Shown here: one piece after another, positions 1-59,887 of the stretch | Layout: every line of letters begins with the position of its first letter | How positions within the stretch are numbered: position 1 is the first letter of the stretch | IMG/VR virus record: IMGVR_UViG_3300034021_001440 | Coordinates: 48,419 to 112,418 of that record | Reading direction: 5' to 3' (one strand) | Length of the DNA stretch: 64,000 bases | Source of the DNA: a virus | The notes under the pieces: generated by a model | The model's input: only the letters and a program-made list of their open reading frames with translations | What the model was told of the DNA's origin: nothing | Databases searched by the model: none | Made by a program: the position numbers and the translations under genes

Positions 1-1230
1 ATGATTTGTTTGGTTGAGTTTCCCGCACCGGTGCAAGCCCCTCTCGGGCAGGTGCGTGACTATCTGAGGCAGAAAAATAATGTTCAACCAGGAAGTATCC
101 AGGACAAGCGTCTGAACGCGGCCCTGGGCAAACTCTCCAGTGTTCTCAAAGTTGAGGGCCAAGAGGCCCCGTCAAAACGCACGGGTTTGGCAAAGCCAAC
201 GGTTGAGTGGAAACGAGATGAAAAGAGGGCAGAAAGACAAGGCATTCTGTGGAAAGAAGTTCAAGGGTTGAAGAAGCGTCGAAACCTGCTGGGTGAGGCT
301 GAGTTTGAGCGGGAGGCAATGCGTGCCCTTCACAAGGATGCGATGTCACGGGGTCTCCGACTGCCTCGCGCAGAATTGGAAATGATCTTGGATGTTCTTC
401 CAAAAAATGTTCAAACATCTCTCGCAAAGTCTGGAAGAGCAGAAAGTGGTCAGTGGTATAATGGAAAGGATGAAAATGGAAATGTGATCTTCTCTAGAAC
501 CCCAGGCAAGGAAAGAGCTCTCGCTGTGCTCGACATGTGGTTTCGCCAGGGTGGCACAGATGCCTATCAGGGGAGAGGTGGCCGAGTGTGGGCACCACCC
601 GATCTCGACATTGAGCACATGCGCTCACTCTCACAGGGTGGCAGGGACACCCCGTCCAACTGGATCTTGGCACGAGCTGGTGCTCAGCGAGCACGTCAGG
701 CTCAACCTCTTGGCAAGTGGATTGATCGATTGCCGTCTTCCAAAGAGGAATACCAAACATATTTGTCAAACTATGCGAAAGAACGCCGAGCAAAGCAAGC
801 ACGAAAAGCGCGATTGGCTCTGGTTGATCCGAAAAAAATTGGAGACGGGGAACTTTTCAGCAAAGGTGGAAAGACACTGGCAGAAATTTTCCGTGGAGAA
901 AACGGGGGAAGAACCCCTGACACTTTCACAAAAGAGTGGTTGGGGATTGCAAGTTCTGGGGGACGGAAAGGAAACTCCGGGCCTCCCGCACCTTTCGCCA
1001 AAGGACTGGCTCTCATTGCAAAAGCAGAAGGTCTTCCCAAGGCACGGGCAGTTGGAAACACAATGAAGCGAATGTGGAACGATGACTGGAAAGCACAAGG
1101 AAACATAACCAAGCAGCAAGCCTTCAAACAAATGGTGTCCGAAATGGAGAAAAGTTTGACCAGCGAACAATTCAACAACCTTTTCCTGCCCTCAGCGCAA
1201 GCATGGGCCAGAGCCAACGATTTCCTGTAG
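1..1230 (+). CDS. HNH endonuclease-like protein, candidate late effector (5' end cut by window edge)
   Basis: The frame is open from the first base to the stop at 1228-1230, giving 409 visible residues. A helical, basic stretch (about 60-135) precedes an HNH-type core: D203-I-E205-H206, a GG at 213-214 and S219-N220-W221, which fits the DxEH...GG...SNW pattern of HNH nucleases. The third canonical metal ligand is not obvious, so activity is inferred. The first visible residues (MICLVEFP) align with residues 41-48 of the kinase-like protein at 5479-6732 (MVCLVELP). The ATG at base 1 is therefore probably internal, and the real protein probably begins about 40 codons upstream with a cysteine-rich leader. 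The C-terminal third is Lys/Arg-rich and unrecognised. A homing or packaging HNH protein is the main alternative. Confidence 0.6.
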   Translation: MICLVEFPAPVQAPLGQVRDYLRQKNNVQPGSIQDKRLNAALGKLSSVLKVEGQEAPSKRTGLAKPTVEWKRDEKRAERQGILWKEVQGLKKRRNLLGEAEFEREAMRALHKDAMSRGLRLPRAELEMILDVLPKNVQTSLAKSGRAESGQWYNGKDENGNVIFSRTPGKERALAVLDMWFRQGGTDAYQGRGGRVWAPPDLDIEHMRSLSQGGRDTPSNWILARAGAQRARQAQPLGKWIDRLPSSKEEYQTYLSNYAKERRAKQARKARLALVDPKKIGDGELFSKGGKTLAEIFRGENGGRTPDTFTKEWLGIASSGGRKGNSGPPAPFAKGLALIAKAEGLPKARAVGNTMKRMWNDDWKAQGNITKQQAFKQMVSEMEKSLTSEQFNNLFLPSAQAWARANDFL

Positions 1231-3664: not shown

Positions 3665-3985
3665 ATGGGGCTTGACATTCTTGGCGTAGTTGCCTCAATT
3701 GCGACTATCATATCCGGACTCGGTTGGGTTCTTGACAGAAACTCCAAAAAGTTTGCGTCAATGCAACAAGCGAGTTCCGACATGCTGACAAACTTTGGTG
3801 CCAAAGTTGAAAGACTCGACCAAACTCTCACCGAGGTTCGTCTCACTCTTCCAGAAAAGTATGTGACGAAAGAAGAGTTATTGATGCACATCCGGGGGGA
3901 AGAAACCTGGCACAATTCGATTGATCGCCGCCTTGACGATATCCGTGACGAACTTTCCTCCCTACGTGAATGGAGACACCGATGA
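3665..3985 (+). CDS. Small membrane-anchored coiled-coil protein
   Basis: The 106-residue product has one hydrophobic segment at about residues 4-22 (ILGVVASIATIISGLGWVL) and then a long charged helix with heptad-like spacing to the end. It starts three bases after the previous stop, and its own stop overlaps the next start as ATGA (3982-3985). One N-terminal membrane helix plus a coiled coil fits holin-associated or XhlA-like phage proteins, and also small virion membrane-interacting proteins. I cannot decide between these. No lysin gene is visible next to it. Confidence 0.55.
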   Translation: MGLDILGVVASIATIISGLGWVLDRNSKKFASMQQASSDMLTNFGAKVERLDQTLTEVRLTLPEKYVTKEELLMHIRGEETWHNSIDRRLDDIRDELSSLREWRHR

Positions 3986-4581
3986 ACTTTGATGACTACG
4001 ACTGGGAACGCCTTGAAGGTCTTGGCTTTGCTGAGGATGCTCGTGAAGAGCTGAAGAAAGCATGTTGGAAAGGCTATGAGGCCATTGGTGTAAAACAAAA
4101 GAATGGGCGCACCGTGCCCAACTGTGTGCCTAAGAAGAAAAAGAAAAGTCTGAGTTCTAATCACGGGGAGCAGTTTGACATCAACAAGCCAAACGACATC
4201 AATGACATGGCCATCGGCAATGCCCTGCCGAAAGTGCCTGCCACCGGCCCTGTGAAAAATCCACAGATGGGTGAGCAAAAGATTCGCATGCCTCGCATGG
4301 AAGAGATCAAAAAAGCCAACGCCAATAATGGGCAACTGGCCATGGCTGCTGCTCCCAACTATGCCGAGACTGAAGACTTCAACGATGCGTTTCATTCCGA
4401 CGAGCCAAATGCCCGGATGATCATCACGCAACTGCGAGTGATGCGAGAAAAGATTGACATCATGCTCGGAATGATGTATCCCGATGACAACTTTGAACCC
4501 TGGGTGGCAACCAAAATTGCCAACGCCGGAGTTGGAGTTGCCAGTGTTGCCGACTATCTTCGCTTTGGGGGAGAAACGTGA
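3982..4581 (+). CDS. Conserved phage protein with CWKGYEAIG motif
   Basis: I prefer ATG 3982 (ATGA overlap) to an ATG at 3970; the product has 199 residues. The N-terminus contains CWKGYEAIGVKQKNGRTVPNC, a short motif that I recall from several unrelated phage proteins. It is followed by a Lys-rich linker and a poorly conserved middle. The C-terminus (MMYPDDNFEPWVATKIANAG and a following ADYL) resembles the helical end of other phage proteins in which D/E-W-V-x-x-K-I precedes an ADYL motif. The function is unknown. It is part of the late-promoted run starting at 2310. Confidence 0.55.
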   Translation: MNFDDYDWERLEGLGFAEDAREELKKACWKGYEAIGVKQKNGRTVPNCVPKKKKKSLSSNHGEQFDINKPNDINDMAIGNALPKVPATGPVKNPQMGEQKIRMPRMEEIKKANANNGQLAMAAAPNYAETEDFNDAFHSDEPNARMIITQLRVMREKIDIMLGMMYPDDNFEPWVATKIANAGVGVASVADYLRFGGET

Positions 4582-4913: not shown

Positions 4914-4921
4914 GGGTAAAA
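4914..4921 (+). promoter_or_regulatory. Late element GGGTAAAA for the kinase operon
   Basis: Exact GGGTAAAA ending 27 bases before ATG 4949. The downstream genes 4949, 5479 and 6722 follow without another recognisable promoter, so the kinase-like protein is predicted to be expressed late. Confidence 0.6.
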
Positions 4922-4948: not shown

Positions 4949-5473
4949 ATGCGAAAGGACTCCATCAACAATGAAGCCCTTGAAAAGGCTTATCTGATTT
5001 ACAAAGAGCACGGTCACGAAATTGTTGACTATGACTTTTCGCACGCGCCGACCGACTATCAGCGGGGCACCGTGCGTGAGCCAGAGCAGGTCTCTGTCGT
5101 CGAAGGTGCTTTCAAAGAGCTGGTGAACCCTGCCAACGTTTCCAACGGTTTCCGCTATGAAGACCTGAAGAGCAAGGCTGATGCCCTGGATGCTCGTATC
5201 GACGAGCAACAGAACAAGCTGCGTGTGTGTCGCCTGCGCGGAAACTTCCAAGAGTTTCACAGGTGTATGCAAGAAATGCAAGATATGATCAAAGAGAAAG
5301 AGCGCCTTGACGCCAAAATGGCTGTCGCCGCTCCGGGTGGAAACGCCGGTCAAAAGCAAATGGATGACTATAATCGCACCTACGATCAAAACGATAACTA
5401 CTCTGAAATAACCAGCATTGCAGATCGCATCGCTGCCCTCGAAGAGCAAATCAAGGCATACATGGAGGGGTGA
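4949..5473 (+). CDS. Coiled-coil protein, first gene of kinase operon
   Basis: The 174-residue product is mostly helical. A segment from about residue 70 to 130 (KSKADALDARIDEQQNKLRV onward) has heptad-like spacing, and a second short coil lies at the C-terminus (IADRIAALEEQIKAYMEG). It has no membrane segment. It is preceded by a late GGGTAAAA element, and its stop codon lies 5 bases before the kinase-like ATG, within that gene's ribosome-binding region. The family is not recognised. Position and late promoter make it a candidate virion or assembly protein that may be needed with the kinase. Confidence 0.6.
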   Translation: MRKDSINNEALEKAYLIYKEHGHEIVDYDFSHAPTDYQRGTVREPEQVSVVEGAFKELVNPANVSNGFRYEDLKSKADALDARIDEQQNKLRVCRLRGNFQEFHRCMQEMQDMIKEKERLDAKMAVAAPGGNAGQKQMDDYNRTYDQNDNYSEITSIADRIAALEEQIKAYMEG

Positions 5474-5478
5474 TCCCC

Positions 5479-6732
5479 ATGCTGTCACGCCAACCTACTG
5501 CTTCCGACATTCGATCTGCCAAAAGCCGTGCCACAGGGGGAGGACGGAAACGTTGCCGCCGTGGAAAGAATTGTTCCGCCGCTTGCATTCAAGCAAGCAT
5601 GGTGTGCCTTGTTGAACTGCCAGAGTCCGCAGGTGTCAATCTTTCGAGGGCTTCGTCGTTCTTGAGCAAACGCGCACCGAGCTTGCCGAGCAGTATGAAG
5701 AGGGAACTTGCCGGGCTCGGTGGTGGTCCCACGGATGTATTGGACGTCAAAGCAAAAACAGTTGAAAGAAAAACAGAAGGCAAGCCGCCGTGGTCAGCCA
5801 CAGGAAATACCAAGTGGGCACGAGAGGATGCCGAAGACTTTGACTCTGCCTTGGTCGCAAAGGGCAAGACAGAGCCGCTGCGAAGAGTGGGAGATAAATC
5901 TTATGACAAGTGGGATGATAGCTATGGGAGCGGTGCTTCAAAGGTTGGGGAAGGATCTTATGGAGCCGTCATTCGCAACAAAGACGGCACATATGTGAAG
6001 AGAGGAGCCATCTCTGACACCGAGGCCGAGTTGATTGAGCGGGTGGGGAGAGCAGATATCGGCCCTCGCCTGAAGGCAGCAGACATTGACGGAAAACACG
6101 ACTGGCACGACGAAAAATTTGTAGACGTGCGTGAAGGCCGCATCGCAATGACTGGTGTTCCCGGCAAGCCAATTGGTGACACTGCCTTTCCGGATACAAA
6201 GCTGGGAGGGAGAAATGCCGCTGATGTGTATTGGGGTGCCCTTGGCAATTTACACCGGCTCGGTATTGCCCATAATGATGCGCACATTGATAACATCCTT
6301 GTGGACGACAAGGGCAAAGGGCGCTGGGTGGACTTGGGACTGGCACAGGCTAATCCAAAAGCAGCCTTTCTAGAAGCCTTTGGAACTTTTACACCGGCAA
6401 ACAAGTCGGGAGGGTCCAACTGGAAAGAAGGAAATTGGCAAACTTCTCGATGGCGAGCAACCGGAGTTGAAGACTATTTCAAACGAAATGACTTTGGAAG
6501 AGGAAAAGAGTTTCTTCAAGACGGAAAGTATAAAGAATTTCGTACAGTCGTTGAGAACCAGCCGAAAGTTCTAAACAAACTGAGAACTATGGGTTTCTCT
6601 GTTTCTGAAATTGACCAACTCATTAGAACTCCCATTCGCTCCACTCCGGAGACTTTTCAACAAGGCCCTTGGGCAAAAATGACAGACACCCAAGCCAAAG
6701 AACTCATCAACATTTTCTACGATGGCATCTAA
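5479..6732 (+). CDS. Protein-kinase-like protein with cysteine-rich N-terminal leader
   Basis: ATG 5479 is chosen because GGAGGGG (5464-5470) lies 8 bases before it; the product has 417 residues. Residues 25-48 hold C26-x5-C32-x3-C36-x6-C43 ending in MVCLVELP, matching the first visible residues of the HNH-like protein at 1-1230. A protein-kinase-like fold follows: Gly-rich loop G157-E-G-S-Y-G-A-V164, candidate ATP-binding Lys174, catalytic loop H265-N-D267-A-H-I-D-N272, and D285-L-G287 in place of DFG. His at 269 instead of Lys resembles APH/RIO/Kdo-kinase-like enzymes. The target is unknown. The late-type promoter points to expression with virion proteins, so packaging and injection is a reasonable hypothesis. 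A small-molecule kinase is the alternative. Confidence 0.7.
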   Translation: MLSRQPTASDIRSAKSRATGGGRKRCRRGKNCSAACIQASMVCLVELPESAGVNLSRASSFLSKRAPSLPSSMKRELAGLGGGPTDVLDVKAKTVERKTEGKPPWSATGNTKWAREDAEDFDSALVAKGKTEPLRRVGDKSYDKWDDSYGSGASKVGEGSYGAVIRNKDGTYVKRGAISDTEAELIERVGRADIGPRLKAADIDGKHDWHDEKFVDVREGRIAMTGVPGKPIGDTAFPDTKLGGRNAADVYWGALGNLHRLGIAHNDAHIDNILVDDKGKGRWVDLGLAQANPKAAFLEAFGTFTPANKSGGSNWKEGNWQTSRWRATGVEDYFKRNDFGRGKEFLQDGKYKEFRTVVENQPKVLNKLRTMGFSVSEIDQLIRTPIRSTPETFQQGPWAKMTDTQAKELINIFYDGI

Positions 6733-6889
6733 AAAAGACGACAAAGACTATGGGATTTTGATGGCTCAGTACAAGAACTTGAGAACCAAAGACCCGGAGA
6801 ACGCAATAAAATACCTTGAAGGCGCAATGAAGTTGCGAGAGCAAGGAAACGTGAGTGAAGATGCTGTGATAGGGTCTGCGTATCTGTAG
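6722..6889 (+). CDS. Small charged protein (55 aa) overlapping the kinase gene
   Basis: An ATG at 6722 opens a 55-residue frame (MASKKDDKDYGILMAQ...) ending with TAG at 6887-6889. It overlaps the kinase stop by 11 bases in another frame, which is typical of translational coupling. The product is helical and charged, with no membrane segment. The family is not recognised. Because it is coupled to the kinase, a regulatory or chaperone-like partner is possible, but only position supports this. Confidence 0.5.
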   Translation: MASKKDDKDYGILMAQYKNLRTKDPENAIKYLEGAMKLREQGNVSEDAVIGSAYL

Positions 6890-6890
6890 C

Positions 6891-6898
6891 GGGTAAAG
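6891..6898 (+). promoter_or_regulatory. Variant late element GGGTAAAG
   Basis: GGGTAAAG lies 48 bases before ATG 6947, one base off the GGGTAAAA element and directly after the 55-residue gene's stop. It probably drives the large structural gene. An inverted repeat (gcgtgtct..cacacgcg) lies between the element and the start. Confidence 0.45.
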
Positions 6899-6946
6899 TT
6901 ATGGAAAGCGTGTCTTCACACGCGCACAACTTTGCTCTTCAGCACG

Positions 6947-9900
6947 ATGGCAGCGACCAAGATTATTCTCAAGCGATCCTCCCTTCCCGGAAAGCGCCCC
7001 AATACCAATAACCTGGAAGCGGGGGAAATCGCCCTCAACACAAACGCGAACGAACCCGGTCTGTTTTTTGAAGTCACAGACGGGCAAATCGTCAAAGCTG
7101 GTCCGACTGCCTATCTGCCTGACGCCCCGACAGTTTCTCCAGCGCGAGGAGAACTGTGGGTTGACACCGACACAAAGTCCCTGAGTATTGGCACTCCCAC
7201 AAACGAGTGGCAAAAAGTTGCTGCCCCGTTTCTGGGTGGCACTGCTGCCCTGACTGTTTTTGTTGCGCCCGATTTTCCGGAAGCCACTGATTCCTTGGCC
7301 AATGACGGTCAGTCCGTGCCGTTCGTGACAATCAACCGTGCCATTCTTGAGGTCACCAAGAAGATCATTCTCGACGCCAACAATGGCTTGAGCAGCGGCA
7401 ACAACCGCTATCTGATTGTTCTGGCTCCCAGTTCGCACTGTGTGGTCAATGGCCCTGGCGCAACTCTGGGTGAGTTCACAGCCAACTTTGATAGCCCTTA
7501 TACAGAAGTCACTCAACAGGCCCTTCAACAGTTCAACGTTCCCACAGTTGGTGGTCTAATTCTGCCTCGTGGTGTGTCCATCATCGGCATGGACCTCAAG
7601 AAAAGCGAGGTTCATCCAGTGTATGTGCCAAAATACACCCACCCTGCTTTCCCGATCAACTATAAGCAAACTTCGACTGGGCCGGTCTACCAGAACCAGC
7701 CCCTGTCCAGCATCTTCCGATGGTCGGGCAACACCTATGTCAGCAACTTCAACTGCTTTGACAAACTCACTGAGCGAGTGGTGAACTCCGTTCGTGTTGA
7801 CGAGACGACGGGCGTGGCCATCTTCAGCAGCCCCCGCCCTCACGGTCTGAACTTCAACGATTTCGTTCAAGTCACATATTCCAACATCGCCGACCAGGCC
7901 GGAGCAACTTTTGCCAACGGCGCATACTATGCCAATCCAGTCAACTCGTTTGAGTTTCAGCTTTCTCTCAATAACTGGGAGACTCTGGGCACCACCGGGG
8001 TATTGGCATCAACCCTGCCAACCTCGTTCACTCTGCCCGTCAGCAACGGCAAGGTGAAACTTCAGGTTGATAACATTTATCCATACTACATTCCCTCGGA
8101 CGGTGTTTCCTACGAGTTGTCGAACTACTCTCACCACCGTCTGAGTGTTTTCAAGAACTGCTCTCTCCAAGATCTCAACGATTTCTACATCAAAGTTCAA
8201 CTTGCTTTCCCAACTCTGTTCGGTGGCTCGGTTGACAAGAATGTGGCAACTGCTCCCGAGTATCAGATTGTTGCCGAGGCGCAAACTCTGTATCCCCAGA
8301 ACATCCTGTCAAACAGCGCCTCAAACTCTTCCCCCTACGAGAACCAAGTCAATCACCGTTCCAACTATGGGATGGCAAACGTTGACGCAGACGGGGAAAT
8401 TGTCAGCGGCTTCAAGTCAATCATCGTCAATTCTTCCACGGCGGTCATACTTCAGAAAGACCCTTGTGCTTATGAAGTCTATGCCGACTCGGATCAGATC
8501 TGGCGCACTCTGACGACGACTGCGCAGTCCCGGATGCCTCTGGATACTCCGATCTGGTCAGTTCCCACAGATTTTCAGCTGGAGATTTTGAACGAAGCGT
8601 CCATTCCCAACATTCGTTATTATTACACAACCCTGCTGGTGACCTCGGGCCAAAGCACCGGCCTGACTGACATCGATAACGATTTCCGTCACTTTGGTTT
8701 CCGAATTCGCGGTGCTGGCGCCTACATGCAGGCACAGTCCACCTACACAATCGGTGCTGCCATTGGTTGCTGGGCAATGGGTGGTGCCTTGATGAACCTC
8801 ACCAGCGCAACTTCAAACTTCGGTTCCATTGCGTTTCAGGCCGAAGGTTTTGCCGGCATCGGCACCCTGGGTGGAGCAACTCAGGTGGGTCAAGGCTTCC
8901 TGCAATCTGGCATTGTTCGCCCTCTCGCTCTGACTGAGCCCCAGGTTGTTTCAGACTTCCAGAAGAAAATTCTTCCTCTCGGAAGCCGAGTGGTTCACAT
9001 TGGCGACGATCCGACGAATGCCGAAGTGACCCTGATTTATCTACGTCAAGCATTTGATCCCGCAAGCATTCTGCCGTTCTCTCTCAAGCCGGGGAGTGCT
9101 GTGTTCCTGGGTGACGCCACATGCACATACGTTGCCTATTTTGTGGACAACGGAGAGCCCACCTGTATTCTATCTGAGTCCAACCCTGCTGTCAACCCAT
9201 ACGCCCCTGGCGGTGCCATTCTGCGCGTCAGAAAGTCTGACTCCAACCTGCCCTCGGGAGGGGTGTCAGAAACTAGCTTCCCATACATTCGCCGTTTCAT
9301 TGACCCTCGCGCAGACACGGAAAAGTGCTACGGATTCTACGTGGAGTCCACCAACCCTGGCTCTCAAGCTCCGCAAACGGGAGCAGTGCTGCGCCTCAAC
9401 CAGGTGGGCAAAGATCTGTCGACGACCATTAAGCGCAACTACCAGTTTGACCCTGGGCAGTTTGGTGGAATTGCACAGACTTTCACCGTTGACCAAGTTG
9501 AGACCGTTCAGTATAACTTCTCCCTCAACTATAACAACAAGGTTTCCGACTCGGCACAGTCCACAGCTTATGCGGTGTATGCGTCGTTGAGTGACAACTC
9601 GGGACCTTGGATTCAGTCGTATCCTGTGAATGGGGTTCAGGTTCCTTTCAACACTCAGGAAGGAAACTACATCACCAACAACTACCGCAACTATTACGCA
9701 GCAGAGAATAACCTCTGGTCTGCTTTGTACTACTCGACAACTTTCAACCCCGAGAACGGGCCGACGAAAGTGTCTCCCAACAAGGCAGACTCACCGTTTG
9801 TGCCTGCGGCCATTCTGGATCGCCAGGAAAACATTCGGGATGCCTGGCAGGGATACGTTCCTGATCCGTACTACTCCTACTACATCAGCGGTGTTCCTGC

Positions 9901-11878
9901 TGAGTACAACGCAGATATGACCTATCTACGTGGCACGGTTATTCCCCTCAAGGAGTTTTTCTCAGAGTACGTTGTTGACCAGGATAACGGCTCCGAAAGT
10001 CTTGGCATCATCTTCCACCGAGTTCCTGTGGAAGGCGCCGATACTGTCACGACCTCGGCTTCAGTTGCGGTTCAAACCGCACAAGTCATGACGACTCCGT
10101 TTGTGACGAATCCAACGTTTGGCCGTCCCGAGATCATTCGTTTCAATGCGTTGAAAGTCTCGCAGCTTGAGAACCCGAAGAACGGTATCTCCGTAATTCA
10201 AGTCACGAACGGACTCATCGGAGGACCGATTGAGTACATGCGAGTGATCGGACTTTCCTCGAACGTTATCACGGCAGTTCGCAACTACTACCCCGAATAC
10301 GCCCAGGGTACTCTCCCTACGACGTGGCCTTCCGGTACAAAAATTACTCCTTGCGTGAGCACCGGGTATCCCGAACCCTCAGTCTATGACCCGGACTGGG
10401 CAACCACCAAGAACACAGTTCTTCGCTACTACGAAGTGATGGGCTTCGCTCGTTCCCTGGTGGCTCCTTTCCTGATTCCCCAGTATGCTGGGGAGCGAGT
10501 CCTGTACAATGCTACACTGCCTCTGGCTCCAATAAACGGGTACGCAAACACAGCAGCTCCGTGGCCTGTGGAGTTCAACAACCCTTCAACCATTCTGGCA
10601 AACAATCACACCTGGACTTTTGTAGGATATTTCGACTATTCGCGTGGTTTGCCCAAGTATCAAACAAACGAACTCTCCCGGAAACTGGCAGCTGATTATC
10701 AGACTTATGGAACGTGGGGTGGCAAAATCACTTGCTTTGGTGCCGGGGAAAGCGGCGCTCTGGTTGTCTCTGGCGACTTCCGCGAGTCTGCCACACTGAA
10801 CTATTTCCAGAACAACACTCCGCTTCAGAACTTCAACGATCGCGTTGTCTACGCTTCGCCGACTCCGATCGACTATCCCGCCCCGGTGCTGGTCTACTCC
10901 GTCGACGATCTCACCCCACAGTTCACTGGTGTCTACAATCCTTCAACAGGTCAAGTCACCGGTCAAACTTCGTTCGAACTCAAGCGCGGCGGATACCGAA
11001 TCCCCGCATCCCAACTCTCCAACTTTGGTGTTTTGGTGTTCCTGGGCGGTGTTGCTCAGCTCCCCGTGACTGCCTACACAATCAACGGTAGTGAAATCAT
11101 CTTCACTGAGCCTCCCCTGGTTGGCACAGCTTGCGACATTCGTGTCATCACGACGGACGACCAAAACAAAACTCTGGAAGTCGTTCCCTTCGCCATCGGC
11201 GCACCTTTCAACGGTTCAAACGTCGATTTCCCCTTGACTCCGGACTTGGAGGGATTGACAAACGGCAACTCCCTGGTGTTCCTTGGTGGCGTTCTTCAGG
11301 ACCCTCTCGGCCCTCCCACACAGACCGACTTTGCCTACACTGTTGTCAATGGCACTGGTGGTGGTTTGTCAATCTCGTTCATTGGTGCTGCCCCGCAAAA
11401 AGGCACAACCATTGACGTTCGCGGTGTTCTTTCCGGCAACATCTATCGTACAGCCGGTGTGCCGATCGTGTTTATGTCGTCCACGGACGAAATCTCCGAC
11501 AAGTTTGACGGAGCTCGGACTGCGTTCCCGCTGGCGATTGATGGCGTTTCTCTAGATGCCTTCAAAGTCAATTCCGAGAACATGCTCGTGAACCTGGGCG
11601 GTGTGATGCAGATTCCCATCGCCAACGCTGCAAGTTCTCAGCTGGGTCTGGCATACAGCGTCGGTGTGAATCCGTCCTCCCAAGTTCTGGAAATCACTTT
11701 CGCCGTTCCCCCAACTTTCGGCACGACTTGCAACATTCGCGTTCTGTCTCAGGATGAGTTCATCACTTGCCCGTTGCCTGAGCTGTTGATCAACCAGAAC
11801 CTGAAAGCAGGTCCTGGCGTTGAAACTTCGATCGACGGAGAGCTGATTGGTCTGGATGAAGGTCTCATTGGCGGGTAA
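6947..11878 (+). CDS. Large virion structural protein with beta-helix and VFLGGV repeats
   Basis: ATG 6947 (MAATKIILKRSS...) is chosen over a TTG at 6932, because the same kind of N-terminus starts the 11927 gene. The product has 1643 residues. Residues 1-75 form a module (KRSSLPGKRPNTNNLEAGEIA) also seen in the 11927 product. Around 110-230 lies a beta-helix-like region with LPRGVSIIGMDLKKSEV. I recall this from the very large structural proteins of T4-like cyanophages. The C-terminal 300 residues contain three repeats of a ~100-residue unit with VFLGGVxQ and GTxxDIRV, related to the 30491 product. It probably sits in the tail or baseplate periphery. Exact location is inference. Confidence 0.75.
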   Translation: MAATKIILKRSSLPGKRPNTNNLEAGEIALNTNANEPGLFFEVTDGQIVKAGPTAYLPDAPTVSPARGELWVDTDTKSLSIGTPTNEWQKVAAPFLGGTAALTVFVAPDFPEATDSLANDGQSVPFVTINRAILEVTKKIILDANNGLSSGNNRYLIVLAPSSHCVVNGPGATLGEFTANFDSPYTEVTQQALQQFNVPTVGGLILPRGVSIIGMDLKKSEVHPVYVPKYTHPAFPINYKQTSTGPVYQNQPLSSIFRWSGNTYVSNFNCFDKLTERVVNSVRVDETTGVAIFSSPRPHGLNFNDFVQVTYSNIADQAGATFANGAYYANPVNSFEFQLSLNNWETLGTTGVLASTLPTSFTLPVSNGKVKLQVDNIYPYYIPSDGVSYELSNYSHHRLSVFKNCSLQDLNDFYIKVQLAFPTLFGGSVDKNVATAPEYQIVAEAQTLYPQNILSNSASNSSPYENQVNHRSNYGMANVDADGEIVSGFKSIIVNSSTAVILQKDPCAYEVYADSDQIWRTLTTTAQSRMPLDTPIWSVPTDFQLEILNEASIPNIRYYYTTLLVTSGQSTGLTDIDNDFRHFGFRIRGAGAYMQAQSTYTIGAAIGCWAMGGALMNLTSATSNFGSIAFQAEGFAGIGTLGGATQVGQGFLQSGIVRPLALTEPQVVSDFQKKILPLGSRVVHIGDDPTNAEVTLIYLRQAFDPASILPFSLKPGSAVFLGDATCTYVAYFVDNGEPTCILSESNPAVNPYAPGGAILRVRKSDSNLPSGGVSETSFPYIRRFIDPRADTEKCYGFYVESTNPGSQAPQTGAVLRLNQVGKDLSTTIKRNYQFDPGQFGGIAQTFTVDQVETVQYNFSLNYNNKVSDSAQSTAYAVYASLSDNSGPWIQSYPVNGVQVPFNTQEGNYITNNYRNYYAAENNLWSALYYSTTFNPENGPTKVSPNKADSPFVPAAILDRQENIRDAWQGYVPDPYYSYYISGVPAEYNADMTYLRGTVIPLKEFFSEYVVDQDNGSESLGIIFHRVPVEGADTVTTSASVAVQTAQVMTTPFVTNPTFGRPEIIRFNALKVSQLENPKNGISVIQVTNGLIGGPIEYMRVIGLSSNVITAVRNYYPEYAQGTLPTTWPSGTKITPCVSTGYPEPSVYDPDWATTKNTVLRYYEVMGFARSLVAPFLIPQYAGERVLYNATLPLAPINGYANTAAPWPVEFNNPSTILANNHTWTFVGYFDYSRGLPKYQTNELSRKLAADYQTYGTWGGKITCFGAGESGALVVSGDFRESATLNYFQNNTPLQNFNDRVVYASPTPIDYPAPVLVYSVDDLTPQFTGVYNPSTGQVTGQTSFELKRGGYRIPASQLSNFGVLVFLGGVAQLPVTAYTINGSEIIFTEPPLVGTACDIRVITTDDQNKTLEVVPFAIGAPFNGSNVDFPLTPDLEGLTNGNSLVFLGGVLQDPLGPPTQTDFAYTVVNGTGGGLSISFIGAAPQKGTTIDVRGVLSGNIYRTAGVPIVFMSSTDEISDKFDGARTAFPLAIDGVSLDAFKVNSENMLVNLGGVMQIPIANAASSQLGLAYSVGVNPSSQVLEITFAVPPTFGTTCNIRVLSQDEFITCPLPELLINQNLKAGPGVETSIDGELIGLDEGLIGG

Positions 11879-28742: not shown

Positions 28743-29675
28743 ATGGCAGATAAAAAATACTGCATCTTCCAAATTCAAGGCGGACTTGGAAAGCACGTTG
28801 CAGCGACGGCAGTCGCCCAAGTCATCAAGAAGGCTCACCCGGATCGCGAACTGATTGTCGTATGCGCCTGGCCTGAACTCTGGACGAGTCTCCCATTTGT
28901 TTATCGCGTATTTCCTCTGGGAAATACTCAGTATTTTTACGAAGAATATGTGGAAGGCAAGGACTCCCTGATCTTTGCCCAGGAGCCATACTTCACCACC
29001 ACCCACATTAACAAGACTCATCGCCTGGTTGAAACCTGGTGCATGATCTATGGTCTGAAGTATGACGGTGAGCAACCGGTTCTGAAAATCAACCCCGAGC
29101 AGCGCAAGACCATTCGCAACTTCTATGAACCGAAGTTCGAAGGCAAGCCGCTGATGCTCATCCATACGAACGGCGGTCTGTTTCAGAACGAGCGTCCCTT
29201 CTGCTGGAGTCGGGATATGCCCATCGAAGTGGCACAAAAAGTCTTCAACCACTTCAAGAAAAGTCACACCGTGATGCAAATCACCCGCCCTGCTTCGCCG
29301 CAGATTGAGGGTGCTTTCATTCGCAACGAGCCTCTCTCCAACACGGAACTGGCTGGTTTGGTGGAGTTTTCTGACAAGCGCCTCCTGATTGACTCTTCGC
29401 TTCAGCACATGGCTGCTGCGTTCGGGCTGCCTTCCACCGTGCTCTGGAATGCCACTTCGTCTGTGATCTTTGGTCACGCGATGCACGACAACATTCAAGC
29501 CAAAGAAAAGCCGCAGAAGTCTCTGCCTGGAAGCTATCTCTTTGACTATCAGTTTGATGCCAACGAGAATGAGTTTCCGTATGAGGACGACGACCTCAAA
29601 AATCTCTACGACCTTGACCGCATCATTGCGTCGCTGGAAAAGCAAACCAATGAGGTGAAGAAGGGTTTCGCATGA
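28743..29675 (+). CDS. Glycosyltransferase, family 9-like
   Basis: The 310-residue product starts with a Rossmann-like strand and a Gly-rich loop (IQGGLGKHVAATAVAQVI, residues 10-27). The C-terminal half has LLIDSSLQHMAAAFGLPSTV and a following VLWNATS, the layout of the nucleotide-sugar site in GT9 heptosyltransferase-type enzymes (liDsgl.H.AaalG.P.v.l.g). It would transfer a sugar in the cytoplasm; substrate unknown. Its stop overlaps the sulfotransferase start by ATGA (29672-29675), so the two are translationally coupled. The promoter is of the sigma70-like type although fibre genes flank it. It could decorate phage fibres or alter host surface glycan. Confidence 0.7.
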   Translation: MADKKYCIFQIQGGLGKHVAATAVAQVIKKAHPDRELIVVCAWPELWTSLPFVYRVFPLGNTQYFYEEYVEGKDSLIFAQEPYFTTTHINKTHRLVETWCMIYGLKYDGEQPVLKINPEQRKTIRNFYEPKFEGKPLMLIHTNGGLFQNERPFCWSRDMPIEVAQKVFNHFKKSHTVMQITRPASPQIEGAFIRNEPLSNTELAGLVEFSDKRLLIDSSLQHMAAAFGLPSTVLWNATSSVIFGHAMHDNIQAKEKPQKSLPGSYLFDYQFDANENEFPYEDDDLKNLYDLDRIIASLEKQTNEVKKGFA

Positions 29676-30466
29676 ACCGCTTCGTGTTTCTTGCTGGGCT
29701 GCCTCGCACAGGTTCCACTGTGCTTGGCGCCCTTTTGAATCAGCACCCGTTTCTGTATCCAACGGAGACGTCGATGGTTCACCGCCACATTCACGAAGTT
29801 TCAAACTTTTTTGTAGGAGAGTATCCTCTCTACGACACGAACGACCCCAACTCACCCCTGTGGGGAATCGTGAGAGGTATTCTGCAAGGGGCGTATGAAC
29901 ACGTCAAGGGGAAAGTAGTCATTGAGAAAAGCAGGGGGTGGTCGTGGGAAATCGACATCCTGAGAAAGGCTTTGGGGGAGCCACCCAAGTTCGTCGCCAC
30001 TGTGCGGTCCATTCCCGAAATTATCTCTTCTTTCATCCTCCTGGCCAATAAAATTGGCGATGACTCAAAGATTCATACACAGTTGAGGGAGACAGGTTAT
30101 CCCATAACCACCTGGAACCTGTCGCACTTCATCTGGGAAAAGTACATCGATGCTGACTGGCAAGGTTTCCGTCAAGCATACGAAACAAACACTGACTTGT
30201 TTCACCTGATTGAGTACGACGACCTTGTGCAAAAACCTGAGGAAGTTCTCAATAATTTTTATTCTTTTATTGAGGTGCCTCCCATTAAAGTTCACACGGA
30301 CTCCCTTGTGCGCGGTGCCGTCGAAAATGACGATGCCTTTGGGTTGCCAGGACTGCACGACATCCGCTCAGACTTGTCTCGCACTTCTCCCCCCGCACTT
30401 GAAGTTCTCGGAGAAGAGTGCTACAACTTTTGGGAGGCTCAGCGCCTGGAATTTTGGCGAGGGTAA
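29672..30466 (+). CDS. PAPS-dependent sulfotransferase family protein
   Basis: The 264-residue product has the 5'-phosphosulfate-binding loop near the N-terminus (F-L-A-G-L-P11-R12-T13-G14-S15-T16), the 3'-phosphate-binding region V108-A-T-V-R112-S-I-P-E-I-I-S-S-F, and a late YDDLVQKPEEVL helix. These are the hallmarks of the sulfotransferase family, which moves sulfate from PAPS to a hydroxyl or amine. Length is normal for the family. It is coupled to the glycosyltransferase by ATGA, suggesting a sugar that is then sulfated. Its final Gly codon and stop form part of the next late element (30461-30468). Confidence 0.8.
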   Translation: MNRFVFLAGLPRTGSTVLGALLNQHPFLYPTETSMVHRHIHEVSNFFVGEYPLYDTNDPNSPLWGIVRGILQGAYEHVKGKVVIEKSRGWSWEIDILRKALGEPPKFVATVRSIPEIISSFILLANKIGDDSKIHTQLRETGYPITTWNLSHFIWEKYIDADWQGFRQAYETNTDLFHLIEYDDLVQKPEEVLNNFYSFIEVPPIKVHTDSLVRGAVENDDAFGLPGLHDIRSDLSRTSPPALEVLGEECYNFWEAQRLEFWRG

Positions 30467-59246: not shown

Positions 59247-59275
59247 TTGCCGTGACCCCCATTTCATTGTATAAT
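59247..59275 (+). promoter_or_regulatory. Sigma70-like promoter for the phage sigma factor
   Basis: TTGCCG (59247-59252), 17 bases, TATAAT (59270-59275), 21 bases before ATG 59297. Its -35 is closer to the host consensus than the TTTAC type. Confidence 0.6.
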
Positions 59276-59296
59276 ATGGAGAGTTACAGAGGATCT

Positions 59297-59887
59297 ATGC
59301 CCACTCCAGACCTGCTTCAGAAAGCGATCAAGGGGGATGCCCGGAGCATCTCGGCGATCGTGCAAAAATACACACCACTTGTTCACAAGATCGTAAACAA
59401 ATATGCCTGGATGTCTCCGGCTCACAGCCGTGATGACCTGGTTCAAGAAGGACTTCTTGGCGTCATCAAAGCCATTGAAACCTTTGAGCCCGAGCGAGGT
59501 ACTCGCTTTATGACCTGGGCGTATCCAAAAATCCGTGGTGCCGTCGCGGGCGTTGCTCGCAAAGAAAAGAAGCACCCCAAATACGCCATCTCTCTTGAGA
59601 TGTCTGACTGGGCAAAAAACCTGGAAGACCCCAATCAATATGAAGTTCGAGACGAGATTCTGGCCAAGATGGTGAAGGATTTGGTCATCGACGGGTGTGG
59701 CTCAACTGACTCCAAGCGTGCGCAGATTGTTTGTGATCGGTTTGGTTTGCTCGGGCACAAAGCCCTCCGTCAAGGGGAAGTGGCAAAGAAGCACGGACTC
59801 ACCAAACAGGCTGTGCAATCCCACCTCGCTCGCTTTCACAAAATCATTCGACAAAAGCACCCTGAACTGGAAATGCTGATCAAATGA
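59297..59887 (+). CDS. Sigma-70-like RNA polymerase sigma factor (T4 gp55-like role)
   Basis: ATG 59297 is chosen because AGAGGA (59288-59293) precedes it and the -10 box at 59270 rules out the upstream GTG at 59252. The product has 196 residues. Region 2 is clear at about 45-85: SRDDLVQEGLLGVIKAIETF then RFMTWAYPKIRGAV, the core-binding and -10-contact part. A helix-turn-helix at about 152-180 (GEVAKKHGLTKQAVQSHLAR) looks like region 4. It probably directs host RNA polymerase to phage late promoters; the GGGTAAAA element is the best candidate target. The stop overlaps the next start by ATGA. Confidence 0.85.
   Translation: MPTPDLLQKAIKGDARSISAIVQKYTPLVHKIVNKYAWMSPAHSRDDLVQEGLLGVIKAIETFEPERGTRFMTWAYPKIRGAVAGVARKEKKHPKYAISLEMSDWAKNLEDPNQYEVRDEILAKMVKDLVIDGCGSTDSKRAQIVCDRFGLLGHKALRQGEVAKKHGLTKQAVQSHLARFHKIIRQKHPELEMLIK

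Follow-up and report, generated by a model that had tools for sequence, protein, structure and literature searches.

Phage protein kinases aimed at host proteins are exemplified by gp0.7 of T7, which is expressed early and is not packaged. In T4, the internal proteins and Alt are packaged and injected as unrelated cargo bearing a short N-terminal address (PMC3012670, PMC9026906), and the T4 capsid-targeting sequence (CTS) alone packages and injects foreign proteins (PMC9026906). MuF polymorphic toxins combine a constant virion-linked N-terminus with a variable enzymatic C-terminus (Jamet et al. 2017, PMC5576092), and polyvalent proteins are effectors, including kinases and zeta-toxin kinases, that travel with phage DNA (Iyer et al. 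2017, PMC5512222). Among cyanophages, virion-associated kinases have been reported for S-CRM01, S-TIM5, S-CBWM1 and S-CREM2 in PMC10665884, which cites Xu et al. 2018 for the detection of APH-, ChoK- and RIO-like kinases in S-CBWM1 virions. Mass spectrometry of S-CREM2 virions recovered 21 peptides of kinase gp14, 28 of the HNH protein gp12 and one of the partner protein gp13, with the authors noting that abundant proteins may co-purify with CsCl-purified virions (PMC10665884).

The kinase gene described here (protein P0001) lies in a 64,000-nucleotide stretch of DNA, referred to throughout as the window, which lies at the end of an IMG/VR record of 112,418 bases, and the phage is known here from this metagenomic record only. 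Its closest isolate is Synechococcus phage S-CBWM1 (66% identity in MCP and 54% in TerL), followed by S-TIM5. S-CBWM1 has the same order of TerL, PhoH, Cys4-tagged HNH, small ORFs, Cys4-tagged kinase and tail/baseplate genes, its counterparts in that order being gp103, gp105, gp106, gp107-112, gp113 and gp116. By tblastn the window kinase is homologous to S-CREM2 gp14, S-CRM01 g130 and S-CBWM1 gp161; these proteins, along with S-CBWM1 gp113 and gp162, share with it a homologous kinase domain and a 3' partner gene (gp13, gp114), although identity to the window kinase is only 20-30%. The S-CBWM1 kinases additionally share its Cys4 tag and the TerL-PhoH-tagged HNH synteny, whereas in the T4-like virion kinases a CTS-type N-terminus and a long linker replace the tag. 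Given the virion-associated kinases already reported in these four phages, the original prediction that such an enzyme is unusual in a cyanophage does not hold.

Kinase gene and fold

The reading frame opens with the ATG at 5479 and runs for 417 codons, containing the complete set of kinase landmarks, i.e. glycine-rich loop, beta-3 lysine, alpha-C glutamate, catalytic aspartate, asparagine and metal-binding aspartate (Table 1). In an alignment of 17-18 homologues G157, G159, K174, E182, H265, D267, N272 and D285 were all invariant and G162 nearly so; the original prediction of a kinase-like enzyme had singled out K174, D267, N272 and D285 for comparison and would have been refuted by homologues without D267 or D285, both of which are kept throughout. 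Pfam recognises the Pkinase family weakly, in the correct position (E 9e-5, residues 253-295), and APH with an E of 0.02. An AlphaFold2 model built with 21 homologues as input has a bilobal protein-kinase fold with pLDDT >90 over most of residues 140-417, and the Foldseek and VIA-align matches listed for its kinase domain are all protein kinases (VIA-align Z 9.9 for AAK1, the best, 9.4 for YabT, 9.3 for PAK4 and 8.6 for PknB; Foldseek E 2e-6). Cyanophage kinases are the best matches to the model in the viral structure library BFVD, and the family profile matches CK2alpha with an E of 7e-10. From the invariant residues, the modelled fold and these matches, positions 5479-6732 encode a protein-kinase-fold enzyme, as originally predicted, and its intact residues predict catalytic competence.

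Table 1. Features of the kinase locus and related elements, in window coordinates
Feature	Position	Strand	Basis
HNH-like protein with the same Cys4 module, 472 aa in full	1..1230	+	N-terminal match, Pfam, alignment
GGGTAAAA element, candidate late promoter of kinase operon	4914..4921	+	35 nt before ORF 4949
ORF 4949, 174 aa, same operon, upstream	4949..5473	+	5 nt before kinase ATG
Kinase CDS, P0001, 417 aa	5479..6732	+	Open frame with all kinase landmarks; homologues; AlphaFold2 model
N-terminal extension, residues 1-22, MLSRQPTASDIRSAKSRATGGG	5479..5544	+	Similar in tagged HNH proteins, PTA.E(I/V)..AK..AVGG
Cys4 module, residues 23-48, RKRC-x5-C-x3-CI-x5-C..LP, candidate virion-cargo address	5545..5622	+	Alignment, pattern, HMM
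Glycine-rich loop VGEGSYGAV, G157/G159/G162	5947..5964	+	Alignment
K174, beta-3 ATP lysine	5998..6000	+	Invariant, 17-18 homologues
E182, alpha-C glutamate	6022..6024	+	Invariant, 17-18 homologues
Catalytic loop HNDAHIDN, H265-N272	6271..6294	+	H265, D267, N272 invariant
Metal-binding DLG, D285-G287	6331..6339	+	D285 invariant
55-aa partner protein	6722..6889	+	ATG within kinase 3' end, 11-nt overlap; conserved neighbour
GGGTAAA element before tail gene 6932-11878	6891..6897	+	Position
Phage sigma-70-like factor	59252..59887	+	Pfam Sigma70_r2 E 2e-16

The enzyme had been placed nearer to APH/RIO/Kdo types than to T7 gp0.7, a placement that stands in part. T7 gp0.7, an early and unpackaged protein, scores very weakly (about 16 bits) against the profile of the window kinase family and gives no significant match by BLASTP, and weaker Pfam scores for APH, ABC1, Kdo and choline kinases recur across the family; however, most matches by profile and by fold are to Ser/Thr protein kinases (CK2alpha, AAK1, PAK4, PknB, YabT), and the combination of these matches with the weaker APH/ABC1/Kdo scores means that no specific kinase subfamily can be assigned. 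In the polyvalent-protein kinase group the C-lobe is lost and an insert separates the catalytic His and Asp (PMC5512222), whereas the window kinase keeps the C-lobe, as modelled helices, and a contiguous HND. A small-molecule kinase of APH or ChoK type, modifying a host metabolite or a cell-envelope component after injection, would be in keeping with the resemblance of the HND.H..N loop to APH/ABC1/Kdo kinases, the recurring weak matches and the naming of isolate genes as APH-like and ChoK-like, but we consider it improbable with Ser/Thr protein kinases as the best matches by both profile and fold.

The Cys4 module and its carriers

Residues 1-115 of the kinase are 41% identical (E 2e-20) to the N-terminus of the HNH-like protein encoded upstream, the gene for which starts outside the window (G000:C1:48230, window -188). 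The core of this shared tag is [KR]-[KR]-C-x2-GK-x-C-x3-C-I-x(5-6)-C, preceded by basic residues, and its four cysteines and GK pair were invariant in 24 diverse tags; residues 26-43 of the window kinase fit C-x5-C-x3-C-x5/6-C with GK preceding the second Cys, and the tag HMM finds the kinase in its own genome with an E of 2.2e-18. Two DNA patterns for the tag core were run against IMG/VR, the first returning 45 stretches and the second 67 that overlap with the first, and the resulting loci are not independent, several being from near-identical contigs. Nearly all pattern matches (87/90) were in frame within an ORF, and all 87 of these lay within the first 100 residues. The first pattern matched only two stretches when run against bacterial and archaeal genomes totalling 257 Gb, and among 50,697 phage records the tag was found in S-CBWM1 only (two accessions). 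A profile search of 29 records gave between one and eight tagged open frames per record. A search of viral contigs with P0001 as the single protein returned no match, the peptide patterns being over-specific. The tag had no consistent match in Pfam or the PDB, zinc-finger families included, has pLDDT <50 in both AlphaFold2 models, and goes without mention in the available parts of the cited literature on cyanophage virion kinases.

The C-terminal parts that follow the tag are diverse, comprising kinases (33 ORFs) and HNH-like proteins (39 ORFs; both counts include overlapping loci), HExxH metallopeptidase-like proteins, for which the label rests on the motif and weak matches, a zeta-toxin-type P-loop kinase (Pfam E 8e-22) and proteins without a known domain. 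The HNH label is a weak one, drawn from weak Pfam (E 0.005 for the window protein) and PHROG matches and from an invariant E-H...N (E268/H269/N283) in the alignment of HNH proteins. One 913-aa ORF (locus L174) carries two tags, and a 1460-aa ORF (L065 2953-7335, minus strand) has a single Cys4 tag followed by three tandem kinase domains. Two adjacent tagged ORFs at L043 (4539-5870 and 5895-7115, both on the minus strand) have no significant Pfam match; by eye the first is ADP-ribosyltransferase-like, with an ASWSTS motif, and the second HipA-like.

S-CBWM1 has exactly five tagged genes: gp106, gp113 (RIO-like), gp161 (ChoK-like), gp162 (APH-like) and gp174 (annotated 'virion structural protein'). 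The PknB-like kinase gp173 of the same phage has no tag, and is not among the S-CBWM1 kinases listed from virions in PMC10665884. The annotated start of gp161 (MG450654.1, 117887) is too far downstream, the frame opening earlier, with the tag MGKNCSKGKSCGSACVNRTMACRV. 'CLVE' within the tag was also considered as a protease site of the T4 (L/I)-x-E type; the S-CBWM1 tags do not keep CLVE, and this reading was dropped.

Two further short cysteine motifs were observed near kinase genes. One of them, ACWKGYEAIGVKQKNGRTVPNCVPKK, a third such motif beside the Cys4 tag and the RPDG motif described below, lies in the window at about residues 30-60 of the frame at 3970-4581. It has matches in many unrelated PHROG families, always over the same short segment, is seen again near kinase genes at L104 and L121, and is perhaps another cargo-type module. 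The virion-detected S-CREM2 gp15, which corresponds to L004 3367-3855 just upstream of a T4-like kinase, and its orthologues have the short module TP.CPEGY.W....GKC.P.

Other fronts on the same kinase family

A viral collection was searched by kinase-domain alignment alone, so that the tag was not selected for, and 73 kinase ORFs were found. The Cys4 module was present on 37 and the motif DF.RC.RPDGs.YGT.G.CRKG (RPDG) on 16, whereas at the same loci 35 of the 546 other ORFs with at least 100 aa carried either (Fisher p 2e-36, a value that overstates independence because the rows are related). Of the remaining kinases, most have PF04233, the head domain Phage_Mu_F (E 1e-12 to 2e-17; homologues L158, L161, L162, L166 and L167), or are embedded in a tape-measure protein (TMP_3, E 1e-10). 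An example of the latter is L177 1603-12417 (plus strand), a TMP_3 tape-measure protein of at least 3605 aa with the kinase domain at residues about 1459-1605, while the 951-aa product of L158 2304-5159 (plus strand) unites a MuF head domain, a zeta-toxin kinase and a kinase of the window family in one chain. On the kinase-domain tree, a quick tree with several long branches, the address labels need 14 changes overall, and for Cys4 at least four are forced by well-supported branches.

The RPDG module (DFTRC.RPDGsaYGTgGkCRKG) is found on many of the family kinases and, within the same group of phages, on further proteins (L003 15121, L010 26753, L047 7904 and 9418, L108, L110, L113 and others), and was not found in the window. 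It is also present on S-CBWM1 gp165 and on the S-CBWM1 NMNAT gp39, which is reported as a virion protein in PMC10665884. Kinases of T4-like cluster C begin with MKRFDAFLTE, MKRLGRLLAE, MISFDQFLSE and similar peptides, and T4 internal proteins II and III, read directly from their sequences, with MKTYQEFIAE. The N-termini of S-CREM2 kinase gp14, HNH protein gp12 and partner gp13 match this T4 peptide. Across S-CREM2 gp1-gp83 the heptad [FYLI]..F[LIM].E lay near the N-terminus in 4 of the 6 proteins that mass spectrometry detected in virions, compared with 1 of 77 others (p 4e-5). The window kinase N-terminus, MLSRQPTASDIRSAK, has no CTS peptide of the form MK.[FYL]..F[IL].E; its Cys4 address differs from the T4 CTS in being longer, containing cysteines and lacking MK.[FY]..F[IL].E. 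Similarly, relatives of the window kinase are fused to MuF, as in the MuF polymorphic toxins, but a Pfam search found no PF04233 in P0001 itself, and no MuF protein was found in eight tag-carrying records tested, for which reason the idea that MuF might serve tagged cargo as head partner was discarded.

Virion entry is the best explanation for what the Cys4, RPDG, CTS, MuF and tape-measure fronts have in common: MuF and tape-measure proteins are virion components, the packaging role of the CTS is proven, and RPDG sits on gp39, a reported virion protein. From these sequence comparisons we lean towards Cys4 being a previously undescribed cargo address of S-CBWM1-like cyanophages, functionally equivalent to the CTS and unrelated to it, that would serve up to eight or more interchangeable injected enzymes (kinases, HNH nucleases, metallopeptidases, zeta-toxin kinases and others), with effectors crossing between at least five delivery addresses, i.e. 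Cys4, the RPDG tag, CTS, MuF and tape measure. The four invariant cysteines, the strongly basic character (RKRC.KGK) and the occurrence of the module on nuclease-like HNH proteins could instead indicate a metal-binding, nucleic-acid-binding element by which the enzymes ride the genome into the capsid or act on host nucleoprotein. This appears unlikely, given that zinc-finger families in neither Pfam nor the PDB match it consistently and that the module swaps with CTS, MuF and tape-measure fronts, which points to delivery and not target recognition, though it would merge with the cargo-address reading if DNA binding were the packaging mechanism. The module could also be a Cys4 element that binds a partner.

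The 55-aa protein encoded directly 3' of the kinase is a recurrent neighbour, with homologues in this position behind many Cys4, RPDG and MuF kinases and all five T4-like kinases examined, and with counterparts in S-CREM2 gp13 and S-CBWM1 gp114. The T4-like partners have a CTS of their own (MKDLHSFLTE, MKELSKFLRE, MKKLDQFLTE), whereas those in Cys4 phages are shorter and have no tag. The protein is probably the binding partner of the kinase, and may ride into the particle on it or keep it inactive until delivery.

Timing of expression and delivery

No T4-type late box TATAAATA was found in the window (0.13 expected). The element GGGTAAAA, in fuller form (C/A)GGGTAAAA(C), occurs 17 times in the window, exclusively on the plus strand, where 1.7 copies are expected and none of 100 shuffles reached 17. 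Sites include 4914-4921, 14736, 16773, 27210, 37985 and 48133, and most copies lie 24-54 nt 5' of gene starts; the genes concerned include tail genes and the tape measure as well as portal and PhoH, both of which lie upstream of the window. A sulfotransferase gene (29672-30466; Pfam Sulfotransfer_3 E 5e-13) sits amid the tail-fibre genes of the window. In S-CBWM1 the element is present 34 times on the plus strand and once on the minus strand, GGGTAAA preceding portal, peptidase, tape measure, PhoH, the tagged HNH gp106 and NMNAT, and being found before none of the DNA polymerase, primase, exonuclease and thyX genes checked; no copy was found immediately ahead of gp113, gp161 and gp162, and gp162 has the variant GAGGTAAAATC. 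These distributions make GGGTAAAA a candidate late promoter element of these phages, possibly read by the phage's own sigma-70-like factor. As one copy precedes ORF 4949, the first gene of the kinase operon, by 35 nt, the operon has the element of the virion genes, which lends sequence-level support to the late class originally assigned to the kinase.

It was also originally suggested that the kinase may modify virion proteins or injected targets, of which the latter is better supported. Action late in the producing cell on virion or lysis proteins, with Cys4 binding an assembly factor and virion association incidental, would fit the late-class motif, the site beside tail genes and the carry-over allowed by the S-CREM2 authors (PMC10665884), but is very unlikely for a kinase family joined to particle-entry modules (MuF and tape-measure fusions, CTS-type peptides in T4-like phages) and a tag found also on HNH, HExxH and zeta-toxin-like domains, implausible as assembly modifiers.

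The kinase is instead probably made late, packed into the virion and injected into the next cyanobacterium. Transcription would proceed from the GGGTAAAA element late in infection, and the overlap of the genes suggests that ORF 4949, kinase and partner may be co-translated; the Cys4 module would then place the kinase in the particle, from which, by precedent, it may be ejected with the DNA to phosphorylate host proteins as soon as infection begins, as the fold and intact active site would allow. Late expression presents no paradox for a kinase acting at the start of the next infection, like T4 Alt (PMC5512222). We regard as rather likely the combined reading of a late, competent kinase that is packaged through Cys4, delivered with the DNA and phosphorylates host proteins, with Cys4 as an interchangeable address that in non-T4 cyanomyoviruses would do the job done elsewhere by CTS, MuF or tape-measure fusion. 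Cyanophage virion kinases are known from mass spectrometry and their route into the particle has so far been unexplained; a shared short address, if true, would explain how they enter the virion. It would further allow the injected proteins of a phage to be listed from sequence alone, and many genes whose annotation now reads 'hypothetical' or 'virion structural' would turn into candidates for injected enzymes that modify the host.
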